The notes under the pieces: generated by a model
Database searches by the model: none
What the model was told of the DNA's origin: nothing
The model's input: only the letters and a program-made list of their open reading frames with translations
Position numbers and translations under genes: made by a program
Shown here: one piece after another, positions 5,247 to 24,900 of the stretch
Layout of the letters: the number at the start of each line of letters is the position of its first letter
Position numbering within the stretch: the stretch's first letter is position 1
IMG/VR virus record: IMGVR_UViG_3300034119_000552
Location: 1-29,506 of that record
DNA: 29,506 nucleotides
Strand: one strand, 5' to 3'
Source of the DNA: a virus

Positions 5247-5576
5247 TTACTGGTCTAGGAAAGAAGAGTTGCGGATGAGCAAGAGGTCATCCTCGGCATC
5301 ACGGATCGCCACCCACCGGCAGTCGTTGCGCCGGTGGTAGACCGTGGGGATCTGCTTCTCGCCGGCATCGCGGCGCGCTTGATCGAGCCAGTCGTAGAGG
5401 TTGCCCTTCTCGCAGCGCTTCACCTCTATGTGAAAGCGGTGAAGGCTTTCGCAGATCACATCGGGGCTTTCATTTCCGCCGCTAAATTGCTGCCCACGGC
5501 GGGCGACAAACCCGCGAGCAGTGAGGAACTTGGCAAATTCCAGTTCTCCGCGTTTTCCTTTGGCTCGGCTATTCAT
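5247..5576 (-). CDS. Hjc-like PD-(D/E)XK endonuclease (putative Holliday-junction resolvase)
   Basis: I start this gene at the ATG at 5576 (109 residues), because the longer frame would run deep into the helicase gene while this start overlaps it by eight bases. The N-terminus NSRAKGKRGELEFAKFLTAR is typical of archaeal-type Holliday-junction resolvases and related phage nucleases. E11, D39 in ESPDV, and E51-V-K53 form the expected catalytic set. It could resolve branched DNA before packaging. A general restriction-like nuclease is the alternative. It is co-transcribed with the helicase upstream and the SSB-like gene downstream. Confidence 0.82.
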   Translation of the reverse strand: MNSRAKGKRGELEFAKFLTARGFVARRGQQFSGGNESPDVICESLHRFHIEVKRCEKGNLYDWLDQARRDAGEKQIPTVYHRRNDCRWVAIRDAEDDLLLIRNSSFLDQ

Positions 5577-6972
5577 TGAGGACGGCGTTAATGGTGTGAA
5601 GGTCGGGTTGGTTGCCGTAAGGCTGCGGGGCCTCATCGGTCATGCGGCTGATGTTGGCGTGGTCAAAGCGGGTGCAGCTCGGCGACCAAACCATGGGGAA
5701 GCTGCGGGTCTGCCCTTCCCGGTGCTTGGCGACGATCATTTCGGCATCTTGGTTGTCCGTGGAGTCGGCCCCGCTGCCGGCCTCGTAGTAGCCCTCACGA
5801 TGCAGAAGGACGATAATGTCGGCGTCCTGCTCCAAAGATCCCGAGTCCTTCAAGTCACTCATCTTGGGGCGTGTGTCCGTGCGCTCATCGGCCTTGCGCC
5901 CTACTTGGGCTGCGGCAATAACCGGCACACCCAGCTCCAGCGCCATCGCTTTAAGGCCCCGGCTGACGGCGCTGACCCGCTCGTAGCTGGTGTTGTAGCC
6001 CTTGGCTTCCAGAAGCTGCGCGTAATCGACAAAGATGGCCTTGATGCCGTGACGGCGGATGTCCCGGCGCGCACGGCCACGGATGTCCATGATGCTGGCG
6101 CCCCGCGCTTCGTCGATGTAGAGGGGCTGATCCCCGAGTTTGAAGAAGTGGTTGCCGAGGCTCTTGGCCTCGACTTGGCTGATGGCGCCAAGACGCACGC
6201 GGGCGCTGTTGGCCCTCGCTCTGGCCATGACGATGCGGTTGGCGATGCTTTTCTTGGGCATCTCTAGGGAGAACAGCAGCACAGGGGTTCCGGCTGCGGC
6301 CATGCGGTCGCACATATTGATGAGAAGCGCACTCTTGCCCATGCCGGGGCGACCGCCGACCACCACCAACTGGCCCTCACGCAAGCCGCCCGTCAGCACG
6401 TCAAGATCGCGGAAGCCCGTGGCCAACCCGCGCGGCTTACCCTTGTTGGCAATCGCCGCCTCGATCTCCGCTGCGGCCTCGTCCACGACGGTGCCGACAT
6501 GCACGCTGCCCTGACTCGGGCCGTCCAAGCTGATGGACAAAATTCTCTCGCCGGCTTCGGCCACCACTTCGCTGACGTTCTGCGCAATGTCGCGGCCAGC
6601 AGCGGCCATACGCACACCGGCCTCAACCATGCGGCGGCGGGCGACATGCTCGCGCAGGATACCAACGTAGTAGGAAAGATCGCGTGGACCCGCCATGCCG
6701 TATATCTCGGTGAGCGCACCAGCGCCGCCGACACCGTCCAATTTTTCAATGGAAGAAAGATGCTGCGTGACCGAGATAAGGTCGGGTTGTCCGCCCTCGG
6801 CACGGATGGCCTTGATCGCCGAAAGAATCGTGACGTGCGCCGGGGTGAAGAAATGCTCTGCCGTCAATTCGTTCCACTCGTCGATCAATTCGCCGTAGCA
6901 AATCAGACCGCCAAGAACGCATTGCTCGGCTGCCGTATCGTGGGGCATGGCTTGTTGCTTTTTCATGGTCAT
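5569..6972 (-). CDS. dnaB: DnaB-like replicative helicase
   Basis: This 467-residue protein has the two-domain layout of DnaB. The N-terminal domain (about 8-115) contains AAEQCVLGGLI. The RecA-like C-terminal ATPase has Walker A GGRPGMGKS at 206-214, Walker B IFVDYAQLL at 313-321, and the conserved block SDLKDSGSLEQDADIIVLLHR at 372-392. AKHREGQT near the end is the usual arginine-finger region. It unwinds the phage replication fork. Its ATG overlaps the stop of a 34-aa membrane peptide (ATGA), and a good promoter candidate lies about 110 bases upstream. No phage polymerase is visible, so host polymerase is probably used. Confidence 0.96.
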   Translation of the reverse strand: MTMKKQQAMPHDTAAEQCVLGGLICYGELIDEWNELTAEHFFTPAHVTILSAIKAIRAEGGQPDLISVTQHLSSIEKLDGVGGAGALTEIYGMAGPRDLSYYVGILREHVARRRMVEAGVRMAAAGRDIAQNVSEVVAEAGERILSISLDGPSQGSVHVGTVVDEAAAEIEAAIANKGKPRGLATGFRDLDVLTGGLREGQLVVVGGRPGMGKSALLINMCDRMAAAGTPVLLFSLEMPKKSIANRIVMARARANSARVRLGAISQVEAKSLGNHFFKLGDQPLYIDEARGASIMDIRGRARRDIRRHGIKAIFVDYAQLLEAKGYNTSYERVSAVSRGLKAMALELGVPVIAAAQVGRKADERTDTRPKMSDLKDSGSLEQDADIIVLLHREGYYEAGSGADSTDNQDAEMIVAKHREGQTRSFPMVWSPSCTRFDHANISRMTDEAPQPYGNQPDLHTINAVLNE

Positions 6973-7824: not shown

Positions 7825-8222
7825 GGGGTTGTTAGTTGTTCTAGGAGTTGCCAGTTTCCCGGCTGCCTGTGGCGCTTCGGGCTATACCGAATGCGCTTTC
7901 GCTCGCGGATCTCGTCAAAACGCCAAAGGACAAACTCCTCCGCGTCCGGCAGCCATGCGGCGATTACGTCGAAGTCTCCCGTGGCGTAGGCGACCTTGCT
8001 GCTCCTGCCGCGACCGCTAGTGAACACATAGGACTGATGGTGCTCGTCCCACGTCGCCATCTTGACCTGCACGCTGATCGGGCGACCGGGGGGCTTGAAG
8101 ATGCAAACGTCTGCCGTCTGGGCGTGGCCGATAGGCATGTAGACTTCCCAACCGCGAAAGCCCGCCTGCGCGCAAAACAACATCTCGGCGTAGGCGCCCT
8201 TCTGGCAGTTGGTCATGGTCAT
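7821..8222 (-). CDS. PD-(D/E)XK endonuclease-like protein (PDDEXK_5 type)
   Basis: This 133-residue protein matches the compact endonuclease-like family related to Holliday-junction resolvases. KGAYAEMLFCAQAGFRGWEV at 8-27 carries E13, GHAQTADVCIF carries D38, and ISVQVKMA carries Q52 and K54 in the (E/Q)xK position. YATGDFDVIAAWLPD at 79-93 is the usual following strand. It sits next to the replication-initiator-like gene and probably acts on phage or host DNA. The glutamine replacing the acidic residue occurs in some members; cleavage activity is not proven. Its ATG overlaps the upstream stop (ATGA). Confidence 0.82.
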   Translation of the reverse strand: MTMTNCQKGAYAEMLFCAQAGFRGWEVYMPIGHAQTADVCIFKPPGRPISVQVKMATWDEHHQSYVFTSGRGRSSKVAYATGDFDVIAAWLPDAEEFVLWRFDEIRERKRIRYSPKRHRQPGNWQLLEQLTTP

Positions 8223-8947
8223 ACCGCCAGCTCCTGCATGAGTTCGGAGAAGTCATCCCGCACGATCTTCACGATCTTCGGGGCAGGGGGCGCCATGCGC
8301 TGCTGCTTCGCGTCTTTATCCAGCCAGACCTTCAGCCGCTGGCGGGTGGGCGTCTCGCCCTTGTCGGCGCACCACTTGAGCAAATGCTCAAACTTTGCGC
8401 GGACGTTGACCCCGGCGTATTGGGGGAGAGTGGCGAGATGGTCTAGCCAGTCATCGTCGGACATGCCCTTTCCGAGAATGCTTTCTCGCGGCGGCACTTT
8501 TGTCTTTCCGTTAGTTCCGTTTAGGTTGCTAGGGATTTGGTTTGAGAATGGTATTGCATTTGTCTTTCTTTCTTTAGAAGAAGAAGGATAGATATTGTTT
8601 AGTATTGTTGAGTGCTCAAATTGAGCACATGATGTGCTCAGATTGAGCACATGCTCAGATTGAGCACATGCCACTTTTGGGAGAAGCCAATCACTCGCAG
8701 GCTTGCGGGGATCAGCGGTTCCAAAGCCCCCCGGCTCAAGCTGCTTAACCTCGCCGGCCTCCTCCAACTCCCTTAAAGACCGCGTCACCGTCGCCACACT
8801 GAGCCGCGTCTTCTTGGCCAGCCCGCGATAGGAGCCGAAACAGACCCCCTTCTCGTTGGCCCAGTCCGCCAAGGCCAGAAGCACTAGCCTTGCCGACCCT
8901 GTCGATTGGCTCTCCTCCCACACCCAGTTGGTTGCTTTAGCGCTCAT
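8219..8947 (-). CDS. Replication-initiator-like winged-helix protein
   Basis: This 242-residue protein has an N-terminal winged helix-turn-helix at about 17-75 (SARLVLLALADWANEKG, then YRGLAKKTRLSVATVTRSLR). This is the pattern of phage replication-initiation proteins of the lambda O/HTH_36 type. A low-complexity linker encoded by repeated DNA follows (about 92-112), then a helical C-terminal domain. It lies in the same operon as the DnaB-like helicase. The repeats inside its coding sequence look like its own binding sites, as in lambda O, which strengthens the assignment. A general transcription-factor role is the alternative. Confidence 0.72.
   Translation of the reverse strand: MSAKATNWVWEESQSTGSARLVLLALADWANEKGVCFGSYRGLAKKTRLSVATVTRSLRELEEAGEVKQLEPGGFGTADPRKPASDWLLPKVACAQSEHVLNLSTSCAQFEHSTILNNIYPSSSKERKTNAIPFSNQIPSNLNGTNGKTKVPPRESILGKGMSDDDWLDHLATLPQYAGVNVRAKFEHLLKWCADKGETPTRQRLKVWLDKDAKQQRMAPPAPKIVKIVRDDFSELMQELAV
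8521..8668. other. Candidate replication origin inside the initiator-like gene
   Basis: Three copies of a near-palindrome, arms (G/A)TGCTCA and TGAGCAC with a 3-bp centre, lie at 8613-8629, 8635-8651 and 8652-8668. Bases 8521-8612 beside them are clearly richer in A and T than the surrounding DNA and contain several polypurine/polypyrimidine runs. Binding sites next to an AT-rich unwinding region within an initiator gene is the lambda-type origin layout. This is inferred from layout, not shown. Confidence 0.6.
8613..8668. repeat. Three iteron-like inverted repeats
   Basis: Copies 1 and 2 read GTGCTCAAATTGAGCAC and GTGCTCAGATTGAGCAC; copy 3 differs in the first base (ATGCTCAGATTGAGCAC). The first-to-second distance is 22 bp and the second-to-third 17 bp. 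The repeats translate as recurring CAQ(S/F)EH in the linker of the protein, so selection at the DNA level is more likely than at the protein level. Confidence 0.85.
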
Positions 8948-9167
8948 AAGATAAATTCTGCTGATAAGTTTGCGTCAGTTCGTCCCAGATAAACCCCTCT
9001 GGCGCCGTCAGTTGGCGGTAGCCGGCGACCAGTGAACGCCAGCCCTCCATGGGCGCGTTGAACTCCCATGCCTTGGGCGCATTCCACGGAGACGTGTGCT
9101 GCCAGCTTTTGGCCGCACAACCGGCGTAAAGAGCACAAAGCACGATACTTGCTGCAATTTTGGCCAT
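8937..9167 (-). CDS. Small putative lipoprotein or secreted protein (76 aa)
   Basis: I start at the ATG at 9167, one base after the upstream stop, because the longer frame adds an unlikely N-terminus before a clear signal. Residues 1-17 (MAKIAASIVLCALYAGC) form a signal peptide ending in a lipobox-like LYAGC with C17. The mature part is rich in tryptophan and aromatic residues (SWQHTSPWNAPKAWEF). It overlaps the initiator gene by 11 bases. A lipoprotein inside a replication operon is unusual; superinfection exclusion is one possibility. Confidence 0.68.
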   Translation of the reverse strand: MAKIAASIVLCALYAGCAAKSWQHTSPWNAPKAWEFNAPMEGWRSLVAGYRQLTAPEGFIWDELTQTYQQNLSYER

Positions 9168-9168
9168 G

Positions 9169-9597
9169 TCAGCGAGGGTCAAATGGTTCGGGCTTGTAGC
9201 CAAAGACCGGATACGGGCCGTCCATCCGGCCACTGAAGATCAGAGTAATCGGCTTACGGGGGCGCCACTTGCGGCGGTCCTTCACCAGCACCCTGCCCTC
9301 CATGCCGTCAACGTCCACGATCATTAGATTCGGGTTCTGGCTTGGGCCGCGCATCGCCTCCTTGGGAGACACATGCCCATAGTAGATTTCGTTCTGCACA
9401 AACCCACCAACCCGTGGCACCTTGTCCAACTTGGGTGCGGTCGTGTGCTCAGTCACTACATTCGATGCCTCAGAGGGGCCTTCCTGCTCGATTGCGGGGG
9501 CTTCTGGGGGCTGTTCGTTAGTAGATTCTGATACAGGCTTGGCGGGTTCTAGCTTTCGGCTCAGTCGTTTTAGGCGGGATAGGAGGTCTTGGCTCAT
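9169..9597 (-). CDS. Hypothetical protein with disordered N-terminal half (142 aa)
   Basis: Residues 1-60 are low-complexity and rich in P, E, S and T after a short basic coil (LLSRLKRLSRKLEP). The C-terminal half has a beta-rich globular pattern: NPNLMIVDVDGMEGRVLVKD, then WRPRKPITLIFSG and GPYPVFGYKPEPFDPR. No family is recognised. It precedes the lipoprotein-like gene with a 1-nt gap. The leader before its ATG is C/A-rich and has no Shine-Dalgarno. Confidence 0.75.
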   Translation of the reverse strand: MSQDLLSRLKRLSRKLEPAKPVSESTNEQPPEAPAIEQEGPSEASNVVTEHTTAPKLDKVPRVGGFVQNEIYYGHVSPKEAMRGPSQNPNLMIVDVDGMEGRVLVKDRRKWRPRKPITLIFSGRMDGPYPVFGYKPEPFDPR

Positions 9598-9626
9598 GGG
9601 TTAGTGGTGGTTGGGCGGGTTGGGGG
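9598..9626. promoter_or_regulatory. G-run/C-run intergenic leader
   Basis: The plus strand carries four G-runs (9598-9600, 9613-9615, 9617-9619, 9622-9626), close to a G-quadruplex pattern but with a long first loop. The minus strand, which is the transcript sense here, is an A/C-rich leader directly before the ATG of the 142-aa gene. A structural effect on the template strand is possible but unproven. Confidence 0.3.
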
Positions 9627-10394
9627 TTAGCTTTTAGTGAAAAATTTTTCGTCGTCGGTTGAATCGGGGTATGATGGTCTAGAAGAACGGCGAACCCCCT
9701 CCACCCCTCCATCGGTAGGGGGTGGCGGCGGTAAAAACCGACCCTCTACCGGCTCAAAAACTGGCACACCGGCAGCATCTACAGAGACGGAACAATCAGA
9801 AACAAGCGGTTGTTCACCGCTTGCACCCTGTAGGGTGGGCGATTGTGTGCGCTTGTGTTCTTTTGGGGCGCGCGTCTGGCCGGTGATACCCATTGCCGGG
9901 GCCGACTCCACAATGACACCCTCAACAACTTCGCCCCACTCATCCGCACTAGGCGCGGACACTATCTCGACGCGGCTAGTTGCACCACCGGCAAGCAACT
10001 CTGATTTCTCGGTCGCTATCGCTGCCAAGACTGACAGCGCTTGATCCTTCATCTCCGGCAGCCGGTCAACAAGCTCGGCGGTTCCAAGGGCCGCAAGCGT
10101 CTTCCAGTTCTTCGCGGTAACGTCTCGGGCCGCTTCAAGTAGTTCGGGGCGGTTGCGCACTAGGGCCGTGATCGTGTGATAACTAACTCCGAGTTCCTTG
10201 GCAATCCGAGTGACCGGCACACCGGCAAGGTGCAAGGCGGCGATCTTCTGGGCGGTATCCTCTGGGACATTCATCCCGGTAAAGCCTGCGTTGGTGCGCA
10301 CGGGGGCGTGGGAATTGGCGGCCGGTTGCGCGTCCGCCTTGGCCGCTTGCACCTTGGCAACCTTGCGCGGCCGTCCTGTGGCGGTCTTTGGCAT
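9627..10394 (-). CDS. Helix-turn-helix DNA-binding protein with disordered C-terminus
   Basis: I start at the ATG at 10394, which shares a base with the upstream stop (TAATG). The 255-residue product has a basic N-terminus (MPKTATGRPRKVAKVQAAKA). A HTH follows at about 50-80 (KIAALHLAGVPVTRIAKELG, then YHTITALVRN), then a helical region ending KSELLAGGATSRVEI, and a long proline-rich disordered tail with PPPPPT. Proteins of this layout in phages are annotated either as HTH regulators or as small terminase subunits. The position far from terL and beside an excisionase-like gene favours a regulator. Confidence 0.72.
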   Translation of the reverse strand: MPKTATGRPRKVAKVQAAKADAQPAANSHAPVRTNAGFTGMNVPEDTAQKIAALHLAGVPVTRIAKELGVSYHTITALVRNRPELLEAARDVTAKNWKTLAALGTAELVDRLPEMKDQALSVLAAIATEKSELLAGGATSRVEIVSAPSADEWGEVVEGVIVESAPAMGITGQTRAPKEHKRTQSPTLQGASGEQPLVSDCSVSVDAAGVPVFEPVEGRFLPPPPPTDGGVEGVRRSSRPSYPDSTDDEKFFTKS

Positions 10395-16176: not shown

Positions 16177-17352
16177 ATGAACATTGAAACTTTTCGCATA
16201 GAAGTTCCCAAGTATGGGTTGAGGGGCGCGGTATATCAACGCTTGGGGCGCCTTTGGCTGCGCTTCACGCATGAGAAGAAGATCCGCCGCGTATCCCTAA
16301 AGACCAATGATCCCAAGGTCGCCAAGGCCAAGGCCATATCTTATCTAAACATTCTCGGCCAAGAGGGAGCCGCGCGACTGACCGAGCTGACCCACGGCCG
16401 CGACGAATCTCCGAGCATCGGCAAGGTCGTCGAGCATTACCGCTTGCGGAGCGACTGCCCGAGCAAGGAGGAGAACATTCGTTGCCTGTTGCGGGTCATC
16501 GCCCGAGCCAAGGGCATCGCACCCTTCCGAGAGCATCCCATGATTAAGGGGCGGGCCATTGCCATGACGGACGCCGAAGTCGCCAAGGTGATGGCCGTCC
16601 GCTCCACCGAATTGAACGATAAGCTGGTGCGACAATACCTGACCAACTGCGGAACCAGCGCCTACACGGCCGGCAGCACACTCGCCAGCGCCAAGAGTGT
16701 GTTCGCAGACAGCAACGACTGGATCGACTTCAAGCTGCCGGACATCGCCTCCTTCCGCGCCGCCAGCAAACAGGCCAAGCAGAAATACAACCCGACCAGC
16801 TTCCAACACATCCCCAAGGACAAGCTGGATGCCATGGAGCGCGACAGCCGGGGCATGGCAGAGATCCGCCGCGCCTTTATCTGCTGTCGCTACATGGGCA
16901 TGACGCCCAAGGAAGTCAGTTATGCCCGCAAGTCGTGGATCGAGGATCGCCCCGAAGGCAAGACCATGTGCATCCGCGAGCGCCCCGATGAGGAGTTCAC
17001 CCTAAAGACAGGGGGATGCCGCGAGCGCGACATTACCTTGGCGTCATGGATGGCCGACTATCTGCTGGCTGCCGAAGACTACATGATCCCGCTCGGCACA
17101 GAGTTCCTTCGCTACAACTTCATGCTTCGCAATTTCAACACTTGGCTGCGGCAATACATCCCGAACCGCAAGGGAGCCGCCTACGAGCTACGCAAGCAAG
17201 CCGGCAGCGATTGGCTGGAGGCGACGGGGTCACTCGTCCAAGTGCAATATCTTTTGGGGCACTCGTCCTATGTAACAACGCAACGCTGGTATGCCACATG
17301 GCAGCGCGCCGTAGTCGTGCCAGAAAAATTCCAACAAGAACCAACAATATGA
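16177..17352 (+). CDS. int: Tyrosine recombinase (integrase), atypical catalytic set
   Basis: This 391-residue protein has an N-terminal DNA-binding part, a SAM-like core region at about 80-185 and a C-terminal catalytic domain. The recognisable residues are K277 in FTLKTGG, R339 in YELRKQAGSDWL, H362 in YLLGHSSYVTT and the nucleophile Y372 in RWYATW. Two usual residues are missing. The first arginine would be in GMTPKE (241-246), where T243 takes its place, and the first histidine of HxLR is Y336. It should insert the phage at tRNA-Arg. The ATG lies only 35 bases past the last arm repeat. Its stop overlaps the lipoprotein ATG. Confidence 0.9.
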   Translation: MNIETFRIEVPKYGLRGAVYQRLGRLWLRFTHEKKIRRVSLKTNDPKVAKAKAISYLNILGQEGAARLTELTHGRDESPSIGKVVEHYRLRSDCPSKEENIRCLLRVIARAKGIAPFREHPMIKGRAIAMTDAEVAKVMAVRSTELNDKLVRQYLTNCGTSAYTAGSTLASAKSVFADSNDWIDFKLPDIASFRAASKQAKQKYNPTSFQHIPKDKLDAMERDSRGMAEIRRAFICCRYMGMTPKEVSYARKSWIEDRPEGKTMCIRERPDEEFTLKTGGCRERDITLASWMADYLLAAEDYMIPLGTEFLRYNFMLRNFNTWLRQYIPNRKGAAYELRKQAGSDWLEATGSLVQVQYLLGHSSYVTTQRWYATWQRAVVVPEKFQQEPTI

Positions 17353-17791: not shown

Positions 17792-17848
17792 AGTCCCGCG
17801 AGTGCGGGGCTGGGCCGCTCTGGGAAACCGGGGCGGCCCTAATTTTTT
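17792..17848. terminator. Strong convergent terminator
   Basis: The main hairpin spans 17812-17839: a 12-bp stem beginning GGGCCGC and closing with GCGGCCC around a GAAA tetraloop, all pairs being Watson-Crick or G-T. TAATTTTTT follows. A second hairpin lies just before it (17792-17811; AGTCCCGC, loop GAGT, GCGGGGCT). The position between the lipoprotein gene and the converging late operon fits a terminator for the plus strand; it may also slow transcription from the minus strand. Confidence 0.9.
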
Positions 17849-20800
17849 AGCGCGGGGGCATTGATTGCCCGAGGGGAGAGTTGACTAGGTTGTTGCGCAT
17901 GGAGCGCTGGCGGCGGGTCAGGCGGCGGATGTCGTGGCCGAACAGGGCAGACTTCACGGCGGCGTCCACGTCCTCAATGTCTTGGGCGAAGATCCGCACC
18001 TTCTCGGTGTCGGGCAGGCGAGCGTAGCGCGGGCTGGCCATGCGCCAATTCATCATGCTGGCCGTGTAGTTGCCCAAGTAATACTGGTAAGCGCTGATCT
18101 GCTCGTTCGTCAGGTCGATGTTCTGTCCGTTGATGGAGGCGCGGTTCTTTACCTGCTTGGGGAACTGGCTGGTCTCGCCGGTGGAATCCATGAGCCGCGC
18201 CGCTTCTTCCAAGACGGGGTTGGCTTTGACCCGAGAGGTCAGCGCCGGATTGAACAGCACATTGAACCAGTGCCATCCAACATACTGATACCGCTCCTGT
18301 GCCTGCCCCATGACATCAAGGCGGGGAGGGAACTGATCGGCAACGCCGGGGGTGTTGGCCGCGATCTGGTTGAACGCGCGCTGCACCGTGACCGGAACGG
18401 CCGAGGACTGGTTGGTTCCGCGCGTCTCTCTCAGCGTGTTATCGTAAAGGAGTTGGTTGGCTTGGCGGACAAGCTGCGGGACAAACATGGAAGGAATACC
18501 GGCGACCGTTCTGGCCACGGCGCCGATCACGCTCTCCGGTCGGCGGGTGTCGAGCTGGTCGATAAAGCTGGAAAGACCAGACAGCAGCGGAAGATCCAGC
18601 AGTGACTTGGCACCAGCCGCAAGACTGATGGCCGGCATGGCTGCCTTGGCCGCGAGTCCTTTCTTGATTCCGTTGCGGTCGTTCTGCTCAACCATCTTGG
18701 CCAACTCGGCCCCGGCGGCAAACGTGATGGCGAGCGGTTGCGCCCAGTCGTAGGATAGGATCACATCGCCCTCGTCCGTTTTTTGCGGTGTGCCCCACGC
18801 CATGGTCGTAAGCAGCCGCTTGAGGGCAGTCACGTTGATCCGGTATTGTCCCATGCCCAGTGACCGGCGCATTGCCTCAACATCATCATCGTCCTCCTGA
18901 CTGGCCGTGATGACACCCATGGCATACAGGTAATACCCCGCCGCATAGATTCCCGTTCCTCCGAGGGCTTTGGTAAATGCCTCGCCGAACTCCCTTGTGT
19001 CCAGTGGCTTGCCTGCCCTTTGGTTGCTGGCCTTCCAAAGAATGCCGTTCATGCCTTGGTGCAGGTTAATGATTAGCCCGAGGGGGGACCAACTGATGGC
19101 CGCGCGAGCGATGGCGCCGGGAACCTGAGTGAATGCCATGAGCGCCGTGCCGAATCCGAATTGCTCGGTTGGCTTGACGCCGGGGATGAAGTAACTCAGC
19201 AGCTTCGTGCTCATCCTGTTGAGCGATGAGCGCCACTTGGCGGCCTCCCTGCTGATCGTGTTAGCGTTTTGGTAGATGGCCCCGGCGGCATCGGCAATCG
19301 CACCCTCGATGTCCTCTGGCGTGTGTCGCCCCGTCCACTCGCCCATTTGCTTGGCTCGCGCCTCGCGGTTGGCCAGCGATGACTCCAGTGCAGACTTCCA
19401 GAATGCGCGGTCAGGGCCGCCGAGGGCGATGGAGAGCGATGTCTCCAACATCCCCATGAACTTGCTGCTAAAGATGCGGCGCCCGACCTCCTTGGCATCG
19501 GCCACTTCAAACTTGTTTTGCGTGGTGAGCTTGGATAGCAGGCGCAAATGGTCGATGCCGGCCGCAAGGTTCTCGCTGAATGGGGCCTGCGGGTTCTGCT
19601 TGGCGTTCCACTCAAAGCCCTTCTTTACATCGTAATACGGGGTGAGCAGATGCTTGAGTCGGCCCGACTTCACGCGGTCTCCGGTCTTGCCGTTGCTAAA
19701 GATGCCGGCCCGACCCGTGGCCACGTTGATGGCCGTGTCCTTACCGGCATTGGCCACGAACTGGATCACGTTGCCGCCGATGTTTCTGATCCAAGTCTTG
19801 GGCGAGAACAGCATCATTATGTAGCTGAACGCACGCACCTTCACCCAGAAGTCCACCGGCACAAGGCTATGGATCTCCTCAAAGATGCGACCGGCAATGA
19901 CGAGCTGCATGTCTTGGTCGCCCTTGGCCTCTTTAAGCTGTGTGGTTAGGCCCTTCAGTCGCGCCCCAAGTTCCGGCGTCATGGTCGGCAACTTGGCGAT
20001 AAGCGAAAGCTGCGCAATAAAGTCATCGTCCGGCATGCCTTCGCCGTTCAGCTTCTCAACCAGCTTGCTCCAAGACCTAATGAGCTTCTGCTCCTTCGGC
20101 TTGCGCTGCGTGGCGATGGACTTACGCGCCTCATCCATCACCTTGTAGAATTTGCTGGTGATGGCCGTTGCCAAGGCGCCGGCCTCGCTTTCGCTGATGC
20201 CGTTCTCGGTCAGTAGTTGTGTGATCTGCTTGGTCGCCTCTGCCTTGGTGGCCTTGCTGGTCAGGACAGAGCGGATGCCGACATTGGTGCGCTGCTTCTG
20301 CGTCTTGTCCTTAATGCGGCGCTTCAGCTTCTCTTGGATCTTCTCGCCGCCTTGGGTGCCGTTGATGATGGTGTCTTCAGCGACTGTCTTGCGGGTCGCC
20401 TTCACTTCAGTCTCGGCGGACACAACGCTATCCTGCGCCGCGCGGATCTGGCCCTGCCTTTCCTCGGGCAACGTGTCGATGTATTGCTCGATGACTTGAT
20501 TTGCGTAGAAGACGATGCCCTCCGGTGTCAGTCGGGCCAGCATGGCGAGCACGCTGATGGTCTGGCCGATGCTTGTGGCGCGGTTGGACATGATGCGAAC
20601 AACGCGCGCCTGCCGCTGATGCTCTCCCATCGCTCCAAGTCTGGCCGCCAGCTCTAGGCCGATTCCAAAGTCAACAGGTGTGGGCGTCAGGCTGTCGGCA
20701 GCCAGATCAAGTATCCGCTGCTCGGCGGCATCAATCCCATTCTGGTTGATCCATTCCTTGGCCTGATCTGCCGTTCCTTCCAGCGTGATCGGAACATACT

Positions 20801-23036
20801 CACTGCCAAGCTCGGCCTTCGCCTCTTCCGTGATGGCATCAGACTTCTTCGCCTTCTCCTCAAACTGCCTCGGCTTGGCCTTCGGCCGCACATTGCCAAC
20901 CGCCCCGGTCGTGTCGCTGTAAGGGCTGTCCTTGTAGGCTTGGACAATGCGATCAAAGACCTGCTTCAAGAACGAAGCGATGCCTTCCCCGAACTCCTTG
21001 ACCATCTGGCCGGCCCACTTGCCGAAGCTCATGCCTGCGCGGTAGATCGTCTTGCCGTATTCAAACAAGTCTTCGACGATGGAGAGATCAATCGCGCCCG
21101 ATTGGGCGGTCATGTTTTTGATGCGGCGGCGGGAGCGTTTGGCGGGGGTGTCGGGCGTTGCGGCCGGCGATTGCGCCTGCGGCCCGTTGGCCTCCATTAC
21201 ATAGTCCTTGGCCGCCTCAACAGCGTTAGAAAAAGTTAAGCCTCGCGCAACAACAGCGTTGCCCTTGCCGCGCACAGACCAAACCGAAGCCTTTCTCTCT
21301 GGAGATTTCCCTGTCGTAAAATCAATGCGGGCCTCAACGGTCGCGCGGAGCTTGTCTGTGTCTGATAGGCGATTCCACTTCTCGGGTGCGGTCACGCTTG
21401 GCGACTCAACAACAACGCGAGACTCGCCATCCGTCCCGTTGGGGCGCTTGCGCCTGCTGATGGACGGCTTGCCAACGACAATTTCATCTCGGGTAAAGAC
21501 ATTGTCGATTGCCGCCGGCGCCGGTTGCGCTGCGGGTTGGGCTTTCCCAAACACATGAAACTCCGCAGCCTGCTCGCCGCCCAAGTCGGTGCCTGACTCA
21601 TAGCGGATGCCCTCAAAGCCGCGCGCCTGCAAGACGGTCTTGGCTTCGGCATCAAACTCTGGGGCGAACGGTTCGCTTTTCAGCTCAAGCTCGTCCTTCA
21701 GCGTGGGCTTGTCGGTGGCAGTGTAAAGGTTTTGCGGCAACGTGTCCGGCGTGGCCTCGTCAATGGTGCCTTCGGTTCCTGTCTGCGCGGCGTAGTTCTC
21801 GGCAACCTCGCGGCTCTCGGACCAGAACTGGTCACCGCTTGAATAGTCAACGTCGGGCGATACGCCACGGAATATCTTTGGTGTCGCCACCGGCGGCTCC
21901 GTCACAATCGTCTCCCCCGGCATCTCGACAACCTCAAAGTCATCGGGGTTGATGGCGGGTTCGGCGGCAGGGGCTGCTTCCTCCACGGGCGCGGCGGCCG
22001 TGGTCGCATCGCCAAAAGTTTCTTGCACATCGACCGCATCGGCGGCGGGTGGGGGAGTAAATTGTTGGACTTGGATGGGCGGCAGGTTGCGGTCATCCAT
22101 CGGCTGGGCCGCCATACCTTCGGCCGCTCCGACAGGGGCGCCGGCCATGAATCCAGACAGGCCCTCCATCGTGGCCGATGATGCCACTCCACGCATAGTC
22201 GGGACGGCATAGCCCTCACGCTGCAAGGCAATGTTGGGAGCCATGGCTTCCTGTCCGCCTTGCAATGCTTCGGGAATGCCTTCGGACACGCCAGTCTTGA
22301 CCGCGCCGGCCACCACGCCACCCGTCACGCGGCCGCCGGACTTGCTGATGGCATTGCCAAGGATCTTCTCGGCGCCGAACAAAGCGTCCGCCGCGCCAAG
22401 GCCGGCCGCGAGCAAGAGCTGGTCGATGTTCTGCCCGCCGTAGCTCTGGGCCTCCAGCGCCACACGGTCGGCTTCTTCCTCACTCTTGCCGGACTGCAAT
22501 AGGAAATTCTTGGTGTCTTGGTAGATGCTGTCCTTGACGATACCCGTGTTCATTCCGGCGCCAGCGCCAGCTTGCACCGCCTGCACGCCTTTGGCGCCAA
22601 GACCGAGCGCCCTCCCGGCAACGCCCGTCGCCACAATGGGAGCCATGGTGCCGAGCGATTGCGCGGCAGTATCCAGAGGGGCAACGGCGAAGGCCCGCGC
22701 GCCGGCCTTGACCTGCTCCCACACGCCCTTGTCCTGCGCCTCCTGCATGATGCGCGCGACTTCTTGCTGGTCGGCTTGGGCTTCGGGCGAAAGGGATTGG
22801 CGGTAGAACTCTTGGTAGCTGGCCAACTCCTGCGACACAGGGTTGTTCGCCCCGAACAGATCGGTCATGCCCTTTAGGCCGGTGATGACGCCACCCGCCG
22901 CGCTGACGGGAAGGTCGGCCGCCTGACGCCAAAAGCCGCTGCCCTCGGCTGGCTGGATTTCAATATCGTCCAGCGTCAACCCCGCCAAGGGATCTAGCTC
23001 AATATCCCCCAGCGTGATGTCATCAAGTGTTGCCAT
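17847..23036 (-). CDS. Giant virion-associated polyvalent protein with ADP-ribosyltransferase-like segment
   Basis: This 1729-residue protein is the last gene of the late operon. The N-terminal 300 residues are rich in Gly and Ala with membrane-like helices (AGAGAGMNTG, LLLAAGLGAADALFG). A segment at 387-497 resembles the ART of polyvalent phage proteins: KIFRGVSP (R390), FWSES at 404-408, NLYTATDKP, ARGFEGIRYE and AAEFHVFG (E492). A helical region at 652-702 and a long middle and C-terminal part follow, with hydrophobic stretches. Such proteins are packaged and ejected into the host with the DNA. An internal virion protein is the most likely role, and the ART activity is inferred. Confidence 0.75.
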   Translation of the reverse strand: MATLDDITLGDIELDPLAGLTLDDIEIQPAEGSGFWRQAADLPVSAAGGVITGLKGMTDLFGANNPVSQELASYQEFYRQSLSPEAQADQQEVARIMQEAQDKGVWEQVKAGARAFAVAPLDTAAQSLGTMAPIVATGVAGRALGLGAKGVQAVQAGAGAGMNTGIVKDSIYQDTKNFLLQSGKSEEEADRVALEAQSYGGQNIDQLLLAAGLGAADALFGAEKILGNAISKSGGRVTGGVVAGAVKTGVSEGIPEALQGGQEAMAPNIALQREGYAVPTMRGVASSATMEGLSGFMAGAPVGAAEGMAAQPMDDRNLPPIQVQQFTPPPAADAVDVQETFGDATTAAAPVEEAAPAAEPAINPDDFEVVEMPGETIVTEPPVATPKIFRGVSPDVDYSSGDQFWSESREVAENYAAQTGTEGTIDEATPDTLPQNLYTATDKPTLKDELELKSEPFAPEFDAEAKTVLQARGFEGIRYESGTDLGGEQAAEFHVFGKAQPAAQPAPAAIDNVFTRDEIVVGKPSISRRKRPNGTDGESRVVVESPSVTAPEKWNRLSDTDKLRATVEARIDFTTGKSPERKASVWSVRGKGNAVVARGLTFSNAVEAAKDYVMEANGPQAQSPAATPDTPAKRSRRRIKNMTAQSGAIDLSIVEDLFEYGKTIYRAGMSFGKWAGQMVKEFGEGIASFLKQVFDRIVQAYKDSPYSDTTGAVGNVRPKAKPRQFEEKAKKSDAITEEAKAELGSEYVPITLEGTADQAKEWINQNGIDAAEQRILDLAADSLTPTPVDFGIGLELAARLGAMGEHQRQARVVRIMSNRATSIGQTISVLAMLARLTPEGIVFYANQVIEQYIDTLPEERQGQIRAAQDSVVSAETEVKATRKTVAEDTIINGTQGGEKIQEKLKRRIKDKTQKQRTNVGIRSVLTSKATKAEATKQITQLLTENGISESEAGALATAITSKFYKVMDEARKSIATQRKPKEQKLIRSWSKLVEKLNGEGMPDDDFIAQLSLIAKLPTMTPELGARLKGLTTQLKEAKGDQDMQLVIAGRIFEEIHSLVPVDFWVKVRAFSYIMMLFSPKTWIRNIGGNVIQFVANAGKDTAINVATGRAGIFSNGKTGDRVKSGRLKHLLTPYYDVKKGFEWNAKQNPQAPFSENLAAGIDHLRLLSKLTTQNKFEVADAKEVGRRIFSSKFMGMLETSLSIALGGPDRAFWKSALESSLANREARAKQMGEWTGRHTPEDIEGAIADAAGAIYQNANTISREAAKWRSSLNRMSTKLLSYFIPGVKPTEQFGFGTALMAFTQVPGAIARAAISWSPLGLIINLHQGMNGILWKASNQRAGKPLDTREFGEAFTKALGGTGIYAAGYYLYAMGVITASQEDDDDVEAMRRSLGMGQYRINVTALKRLLTTMAWGTPQKTDEGDVILSYDWAQPLAITFAAGAELAKMVEQNDRNGIKKGLAAKAAMPAISLAAGAKSLLDLPLLSGLSSFIDQLDTRRPESVIGAVARTVAGIPSMFVPQLVRQANQLLYDNTLRETRGTNQSSAVPVTVQRAFNQIAANTPGVADQFPPRLDVMGQAQERYQYVGWHWFNVLFNPALTSRVKANPVLEEAARLMDSTGETSQFPKQVKNRASINGQNIDLTNEQISAYQYYLGNYTASMMNWRMASPRYARLPDTEKVRIFAQDIEDVDAAVKSALFGHDIRRLTRRQRSMRNNLVNSPLGQSMPPR

Positions 23037-24021: not shown

Positions 24022-24900
24022 TTAAGCCGCCACGCGGCCGTCGATGATTCTTGCGATGGGGCGACCGGCCACATCTTCTGACTTGTGCGCAAAGCCCAAC
24101 TCGGGCATCGCGTGATCCTCGTAAGGCAGGTGCGCTGAGATGTTGTTCACCTGCGCCTGATGCTTGGGGCACCAGACCGTGGCCGGCGCCTTGCGACTCA
24201 TGCACGCTGTGCAAATGTGGCCGTAGTCTGCATTGCGCGACTTGTCAGCGAGGTGATGCCAGCGGCCATCGCTGTCCTTGCCGTAGCGAGTCTCGTCATT
24301 CGGCACGCCCTCGCGCTCCAAGTATTCCCATACATCCGCATCGGTCCAGTCCCGCATTGGGAAAAGCTGCGTTGGAGCGTCCGGTGTCCGCCGCACGTCC
24401 ATGGCCAGCGGCACCTGCCCCTTGATCGGGTCAACGTCCGCCGACTTCTGCCCATGGAAACATGCGTCCCACGGCCAAGCAAACGAGCCGAGAGGGCGCG
24501 ACAGGGCCTCCATACCACAACGCCATGGCTTACCCTCCACCGGCGCCTGTGTGCCCACGGCCACGATCAGCGCCGTGTGTTGGCCCCATTGCTGGTATTT
24601 TAGAAAGTCCACCTGATGGCTGCCATCCGGCGCCGTGCCATCGGTCAATGCAATGCGCCCCGGCGCGTAGTCGTAGACATCCAAGTCCCATGCGCGGGTC
24701 AGCACATCGGCCAACTCGTAGCGGTCGCGGAACCACGGTTCGCGGTATTGCACGCATGGCAGCTTCACCCCGACCTTGTGGACGAGCAGGTGCAGCATTG
24801 CCGTTGAGTCCTTGCCACCGCTCCAAAGCACGCAGGGATTGCGGAACTCGGAGATCCAGCGTTCCGCCTTGCGGCAAGTGTCTGTGATTAGTCGCTCCAT
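24022..24900 (-). CDS. PAPS-reductase/CysD-family adenine nucleotide alpha-hydrolase
   Basis: This 292-residue protein has the PP-loop motif SGGKDS at 27-32. It also has the block FPMRDWTDADVWEYLEREGV at 180-199 typical of PAPS reductases and sulfate adenylyltransferase small subunits, and a C-terminal cysteine group CTAC (230-233) with C244. The family activates nucleotides for reductive sulfur chemistry, and phage members include enzymes related to DNA phosphorothioation or tRNA thiolation. The substrate is not deducible here. Its place inside the tail operon is unusual. It overlaps the preceding gene by one base (TAATG). Confidence 0.88.
   Translation of the reverse strand: MERLITDTCRKAERWISEFRNPCVLWSGGKDSTAMLHLLVHKVGVKLPCVQYREPWFRDRYELADVLTRAWDLDVYDYAPGRIALTDGTAPDGSHQVDFLKYQQWGQHTALIVAVGTQAPVEGKPWRCGMEALSRPLGSFAWPWDACFHGQKSADVDPIKGQVPLAMDVRRTPDAPTQLFPMRDWTDADVWEYLEREGVPNDETRYGKDSDGRWHHLADKSRNADYGHICTACMSRKAPATVWCPKHQAQVNNISAHLPYEDHAMPELGFAHKSEDVAGRPIARIIDGRVAA

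Follow-up and report, generated by a model that had tools for sequence, protein, structure and literature searches.

The locus raises the question of whether a set of near-palindromic repeats inside a gene for a winged-helix protein is a replication origin, arranged as the lambda origin is within gene O, and whether the protein's recognition helix and the repeats vary together among related phages. The window, by which we mean the whole stretch of DNA analyzed, is an IMG/VR virus record of 29,506 bp that lacks end repeats and may be a fragment. The argument draws on the following features:

8219-8947, minus strand: O-like replication initiator gene, 242 aa (predicted from Pfam and PHROG matches)
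8669-8947, minus strand: winged-helix DNA-binding head, residues 1-93 (AlphaFold2 model and structural matches)
8759-8797, minus strand: recognition helix, residues 51-63 (V51 A52 T53 V54 T55 R56 S57 ...; AlphaFold2 model)
8652-8668: putative iteron 1, core dyad 8652-8666 (exact TGCTCANNNTGAGCA match; position shared with L002, L012, and L013)
8632-8652: putative iteron 2, 21-bp palindrome ATGTGCTCAATCTGAGCACAT on the coding strand, core 8635-8649 (motif and palindrome search)
8612-8628: putative iteron 3, 17-bp palindrome GTGCTCAATTTGAGCAC on the coding strand, core 8613-8627 (motif and palindrome search)
8524-8610: AT-rich tract, 3′ of the iterons in the coding direction (AT content)
8470-8668, minus strand: disordered linker, residues ∼94-160 (low pLDDT in the model)
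8222-8470, minus strand: C-terminal helical tail domain (modeled helices 164-241)
5569-6972, minus strand: phage DnaB-type replicative helicase, 467 aa (PF03796, E=4.8e-79; phrog_19, E=6.2e-101)

The 242-aa protein matched PF13730 (HTH_36) above the family cut-off (E=5.6e-11) and many replication initiation and O-like families in PHROG, including phrog_1032 and phrog_391 (best E=7.6e-18). By these matches, the product is classed as an O-like winged-helix initiator. In an AlphaFold2 model built from a 30-sequence alignment, the winged helix at residues 1-93 was confident (block mean pLDDT of 82-91 over residues 1-70) and the tail helices at 164-241 were of moderate confidence; pLDDT was below 50 at residues 95-120 and 122-156 of the linker, the part encoded by the iterons and the AT-rich tract. 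The tail, whose identity tracks that of the phage DnaB across loci, is probably a helicase-contact domain. Structural matches of the head spanned residues 2-95, the best of them aligning 67 residues within 17-92 (Z 8.9, rmsd 1.8), and they included CAP-type and MarR/Fur-type regulators; for this modeled head, they establish a common winged-helix fold and not a function. Foldseek with the initiator model returned nothing at E≤0.001, and its list, with the initiator/Rep entries 4pt7 and 5kbj amid many regulators, had no discriminating power. A sequence search of the PDB with the initiator gave no match.

The initiator gene lies ∼1.2 kb upstream of the DnaB gene in transcription order and on the same strand, in agreement with the first-pass annotation, which had placed an initiator-like gene upstream of a helicase gene. 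No lambda P-like loader was recognized near the initiator gene among the ORFs searched (not every small ORF), and direct recruitment of DnaB is therefore assumed in what follows. Immediately 3′ of the initiator gene is a 133-aa PD-(D/E)XK nuclease-like ORF (PF11645; 7821-8222, minus strand). Farther along the window, an integrase-like gene (16177-17352, plus strand; phrog_1, E=1.2e-12) suggests a temperate phage, a 1729-aa ORF (17847-23036, minus strand) weakly matches tail fibre or host specificity proteins, and a phosphoadenosine phosphosulfate reductase-like gene (24022-24900, minus strand; phrog_424, E=1.1e-11) sits among tail genes.

Within the initiator gene, three dyads of the form TGCTCAnnnTGAGCA occupy 8613-8627, 8635-8649, and 8652-8666 (codons 94-112), and the 29.5-kb window holds no further exact copy. 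The repeats span 8611-8669 overall, equivalent to gene nucleotides 280-336, and ATGTGCTCAATCTGAGCACAT and GTGCTCAATTTGAGCAC are the longest palindromes of the set. With spacings of 17 and 22 bp, the copies fall in two reading frames and so cannot encode a protein repeat. We compared the gene with 2000 synonymous-codon shuffles that retained the protein and its codon usage. The gene has five dyads where the shuffles averaged 0.34 (p=0.001), and 35 repeated 8-mer pairs where they averaged 1.31 with a maximum of 14 (p=0.0005). The 8-mer measure was significant in 22 of 22 representatives (p≤0.002), among them lambda O as positive control, whose in-gene repeats likewise exceeded all 2000 codon shuffles; the dyad count was weak for the asymmetric-repeat types (L026 and L028), both significant by repeated 8-mers. 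The earlier claim of three near-palindromes inside a winged-helix gene thus holds beyond codon shuffles. The range then given, 8521-8668, has to be divided: the repeats are confined to 8611-8669, and 8521-8610 is the AT-rich tract instead.

A fourth iteron candidate, the inverted site TTGAGCAAATGCTCAA at 8376-8391, was not counted because it is part of the shared tail and is also present with other head types (L003, L007, and L009). A short palindrome at 8473-8488, CGAGAAAGC(A/G)TTCTCG, also lies in the shared tail and is found in every head type having that tail; it may be due to chance or be another element.

The window's most AT-rich 100 nt fall within ∼8511-8640 (67% AT vs. ∼41% window-wide), with 74% AT over 50 nt at gene nucleotides 341-390. 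This maximum is 3′ of the iterons in the coding direction, which bears out the AT-rich tract reported earlier next to the repeats, and the tract at 8524-8610 is a probable unwinding element. In each of the 13 representatives, AT content within the gene peaked at the repeats or just 3′ of them. GC skew was rejected as an origin marker; it tracks gene orientation, is thus confounded, and gave no independent sign. The DnaA-box-like pattern TTWTNCACA is absent from the window, and scans of 8200-9700 found no terminator and no promoter-like site, the latter with a sigma-70 model that may not fit the host.

Scans of the viral collection, with the full-length protein or individual heads as query, yielded 91 further IMG/VR genes (92 with the window). 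The evidence is wholly comparative, and its sequences are in many cases close kin. All 91 relatives carry a repeat array at the matching place, ∼codons 85-130, with differing repeat sequences, and in nearly all loci the motifs are restricted to the initiator gene. The types are as follows:

Type A (window, L002, L012, L013): TGCTCAnnnTGAGCA
Type B (L003-L007): GTGTTC-n5-GAACAC with GTGGTC variants
Types C/I/J (L008, L026-L029): GTGTCA-based
Type D (L009-L011): GGACAAATTGTCC
Type E (L031 and others): GGTGCA-n5-TGCACC
Type F (L041 and others): GGTCTCAnnnTGAGACC
Type G (L030, L070): GTGTCA/GGTCCA
Type H (L092 and others): GGTCTAA-based
Type K (L104): GCCGCA-based

L104 is a more distant O-like gene outside the main group, with its repeats at codons ∼87-126 and no DnaB relative in the 11.5 kb examined. 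Searches at the DNA level among cultured phages, and among bacterial genome contigs, found no relatives. Four phage records from the annotated collection whose O-like heads are distant (those of Pseudomonas JBD68, Acinetobacter Ab105-2phi, and Vibrio H20, and MT835840) likewise had in-gene repeats that exceeded the shuffle maximum, each with its own repeat sequence.

We asked at which level the repeats are constrained. Between the window and L012 (type A), 31 of 80 conserved codons in the head differ synonymously, as against 1 of 19 in the repeats. The corresponding fractions of synonymous differences in head and repeats are 0.230 and 0 in type B, 0.345 and 0.024 in type E, 0.366 and 0.050 in type F, 0.103 and 0.018 in type G, and 0.160 and 0.029 in type H. 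This substitution pattern indicates, in all six types tested, that selection in the repeats acts on the DNA rather than on the protein.

In Mantel tests, repeat similarity followed the similarity of recognition helix and wing (r=0.705, or 0.65 when controlling for the N-terminal scaffold). With the helix controlled for, neither the scaffold (-0.35) nor the tail (-0.06) correlated positively with repeat similarity. We assigned each of the 92 genes to a helix motif and, separately, to its most frequent half-site, and 14 helix motifs mapped onto eight half-sites with no exceptions, the gene counts being non-independent events that fall into 16 scaffold clusters at 90% scaffold identity. The resulting table is descriptive, since the half-site classes were picked after viewing the sequences:

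RATVAR[CS]: half-site GTCTCA, 35 genes
RATVANS: half-site GTCTAA, 11 genes
RRTVADC: half-site GGTGCA, 17 genes
[RK]ST[VI]AR[SC]: half-site GTGTCA, 16 genes
[VL]ATVTR[SA]: half-site TGCTCA, 4 genes
VSTVRRA: half-site GTGTTC, 5 genes
PRN[IV]SRC: half-site GGACAA, 3 genes
K-type helix: half-site GCCGCA, 1 gene

Four scaffold clusters share A52/R56 and the core CTCA, and eight share S52/R56 and the core GTCA, or TTCA/GTCA in type B. Residues 52 and 56 pair with core bases as follows:

A52, R56: CTCA
S52, R56: GTCA (in type B, TTCA or GTCA)
A52, N56: CTAA
R52, D56: TGCA

In Escherichia coli CAP, the base-contacting residues include R180, E181, and R185. When its helix is aligned to that of the window protein, E181 and R185 presumably correspond to residues 52 and 56, which we take as a lead only.

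Comparisons of close relatives located the units of exchange. The pair L085 and L088 match at 97-100% over nucleotides 1-153, differ at 20-48% of bases from about nucleotide 154 to 378, and return to 90-100% identity from about nucleotide 388, except in one short linker stretch. In the differing block of ∼225 bp, both the recognition helix and the repeats are of another type; the block begins at codon 51, where the modeled helix starts, and ends just past the last repeat. L039 and L030 show a like pattern over nucleotides 121-390, and 66 gene pairs combine tails at least 90% identical with helix-plus-repeat segments below 80%. Between the window group and types B, C, and D, DNA identity rises from 0.1-0.8 in head and repeats to ∼0.8-1.0 over most of the tail, the shift falling in or just past the AT-rich tract. 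Linkage alone could account for the coinheritance of helix and repeats; however, exchange boundaries at the recognition helix and past the last repeat argue that the two function together. Tail identity, for its part, tracks phage DnaB identity across loci. Phages with the same initiator tail as the window have DnaB proteins 80-97% identical to that of the window, whereas L012 and L013, with the window-type head and repeats on a different tail, have a DnaB only 53% identical to it, from which we conclude that the head travels with the repeats and the tail with the helicase.

What, then, are the dyads? They might be bound by the encoded protein mainly as an autoregulatory operator, with the origin elsewhere: winged-helix heads are frequent in regulators, and CAP and MarR/Fur types are among the structural matches. 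Yet the sites are ∼280 bp inside the gene, away from a promoter position, and the sigma-70 scan of 8200-9700, which may not fit the host, found no promoter-like site; moreover, in every type the repeats are followed by an AT-rich tract, and the protein family is that of replication initiation proteins in PHROG. We consider the operator improbable. A partition or incompatibility site, suggested by Foldseek hits to TubR-type winged-helix proteins, which bind centromeres, is more improbable still, given an integrase gene in the window, no ParA/TubZ-like gene in the part of the window examined, and such an array in the initiator genes of all types. It is hardly credible that the repeats arose by chance or simply reflect a repetitive protein linker: although the predicted disorder of the encoded linker would leave its sequence free to vary, the iteron copies fall in more than one reading frame, synonymous sites vary freely outside the repeats but are conserved inside them, and the codon shuffles gave p=0.0005.

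Very probably, therefore, the dyads are the iterons of a lambda/P22-type in-gene origin, bound by the product of their own gene and starting theta replication. The lambda ori-in-O layout recognized at first pass gains support from protein family, position, orientation, synonymous constraint, and helix-repeat covariation, from which we infer the origin function. By analogy, dimers of the encoded protein would bind the three dyads; the bound initiator would destabilize the adjoining AT-rich tract, opening the DNA; the C-terminal tail would recruit DnaB, the helicase that the phage itself encodes, to the melted region; and theta replication would begin at the iterons, as with lambda O and P22 gp18/gp12. 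Binding, dimerization, melting, helicase loading, and replication start at the dyads are all drawn from that analogy.

We further propose, tentatively and with somewhat less than even confidence, that the in-gene origins of this phage family are exchangeable specificity cassettes of ∼225-270 bp, extending approximately from the first recognition-helix residue through the last iteron, and that a short code relates residues 52 and 56 to bases. If so, by swapping cassettes frequently, co-infecting phages or satellites would be able to evade cross-recognition or origin-directed attack. In the open-licence literature searched, we found no description of an in-gene cassette starting at the recognition helix or of such a residue-to-base correspondence. 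In-gene origins are known from lambda, P22, and phage L, which are few and widely separated examples; the relatives assembled here offer roughly ten related specificities, in some cases on near-identical backgrounds, and their exchanges single out the recognition helix plus repeats. These natural proteins make the acquisition of new origin specificity by phage initiators directly testable. Frame-independent repeats 3′ of an HTH_36 head in an O-like gene could also serve as a finder of phage origins in metagenomes.

The lambda origin, bound by O dimers (PMC7466680), shares with the window the order of in-gene repeats followed by AT-rich DNA. It has four iterons (annotated at O-gene nucleotides 349-433, spacings 20, 24, and 23), whereas the window has three, of other sequences and spaced 17 and 22 bp; and the P-type loader next to O takes the host DnaB, whereas the window phage has its own DnaB and no P-type loader was seen. 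The closest described arrangement is that of P22 and phage L, where gene 18 of each phage contains its own distinct repeats and a DnaB-type helicase accompanies it (PMC8022706). Genes 18/12 share with the window an O-like protein, in-gene repeats of its own, and a phage DnaB, but the repeats differ, and in the window, several genes separate initiator and helicase. Being of the lambda/P22 in-gene kind, the locus is not a new system; what is new, as read from the sequences, is a broad natural series of apparent origin-specificity swaps with a readable residue-to-base rule. In the PLE satellites of Vibrio cholerae, the iterons vary together with the DNA-binding domain of RepA_N and the C-terminal domain remains constant, cognate pairing has been proven experimentally by swaps, and origin-directed attack by a phage nuclease has been proposed as the selecting force (PMC8263062). 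The window group resembles PLE in arrangement, with a covarying DNA-binding domain and a shared C-terminal domain. PLE iterons, however, are intergenic, whereas those of the window group lie inside the gene, so that a single exchange moves helix and repeats together.
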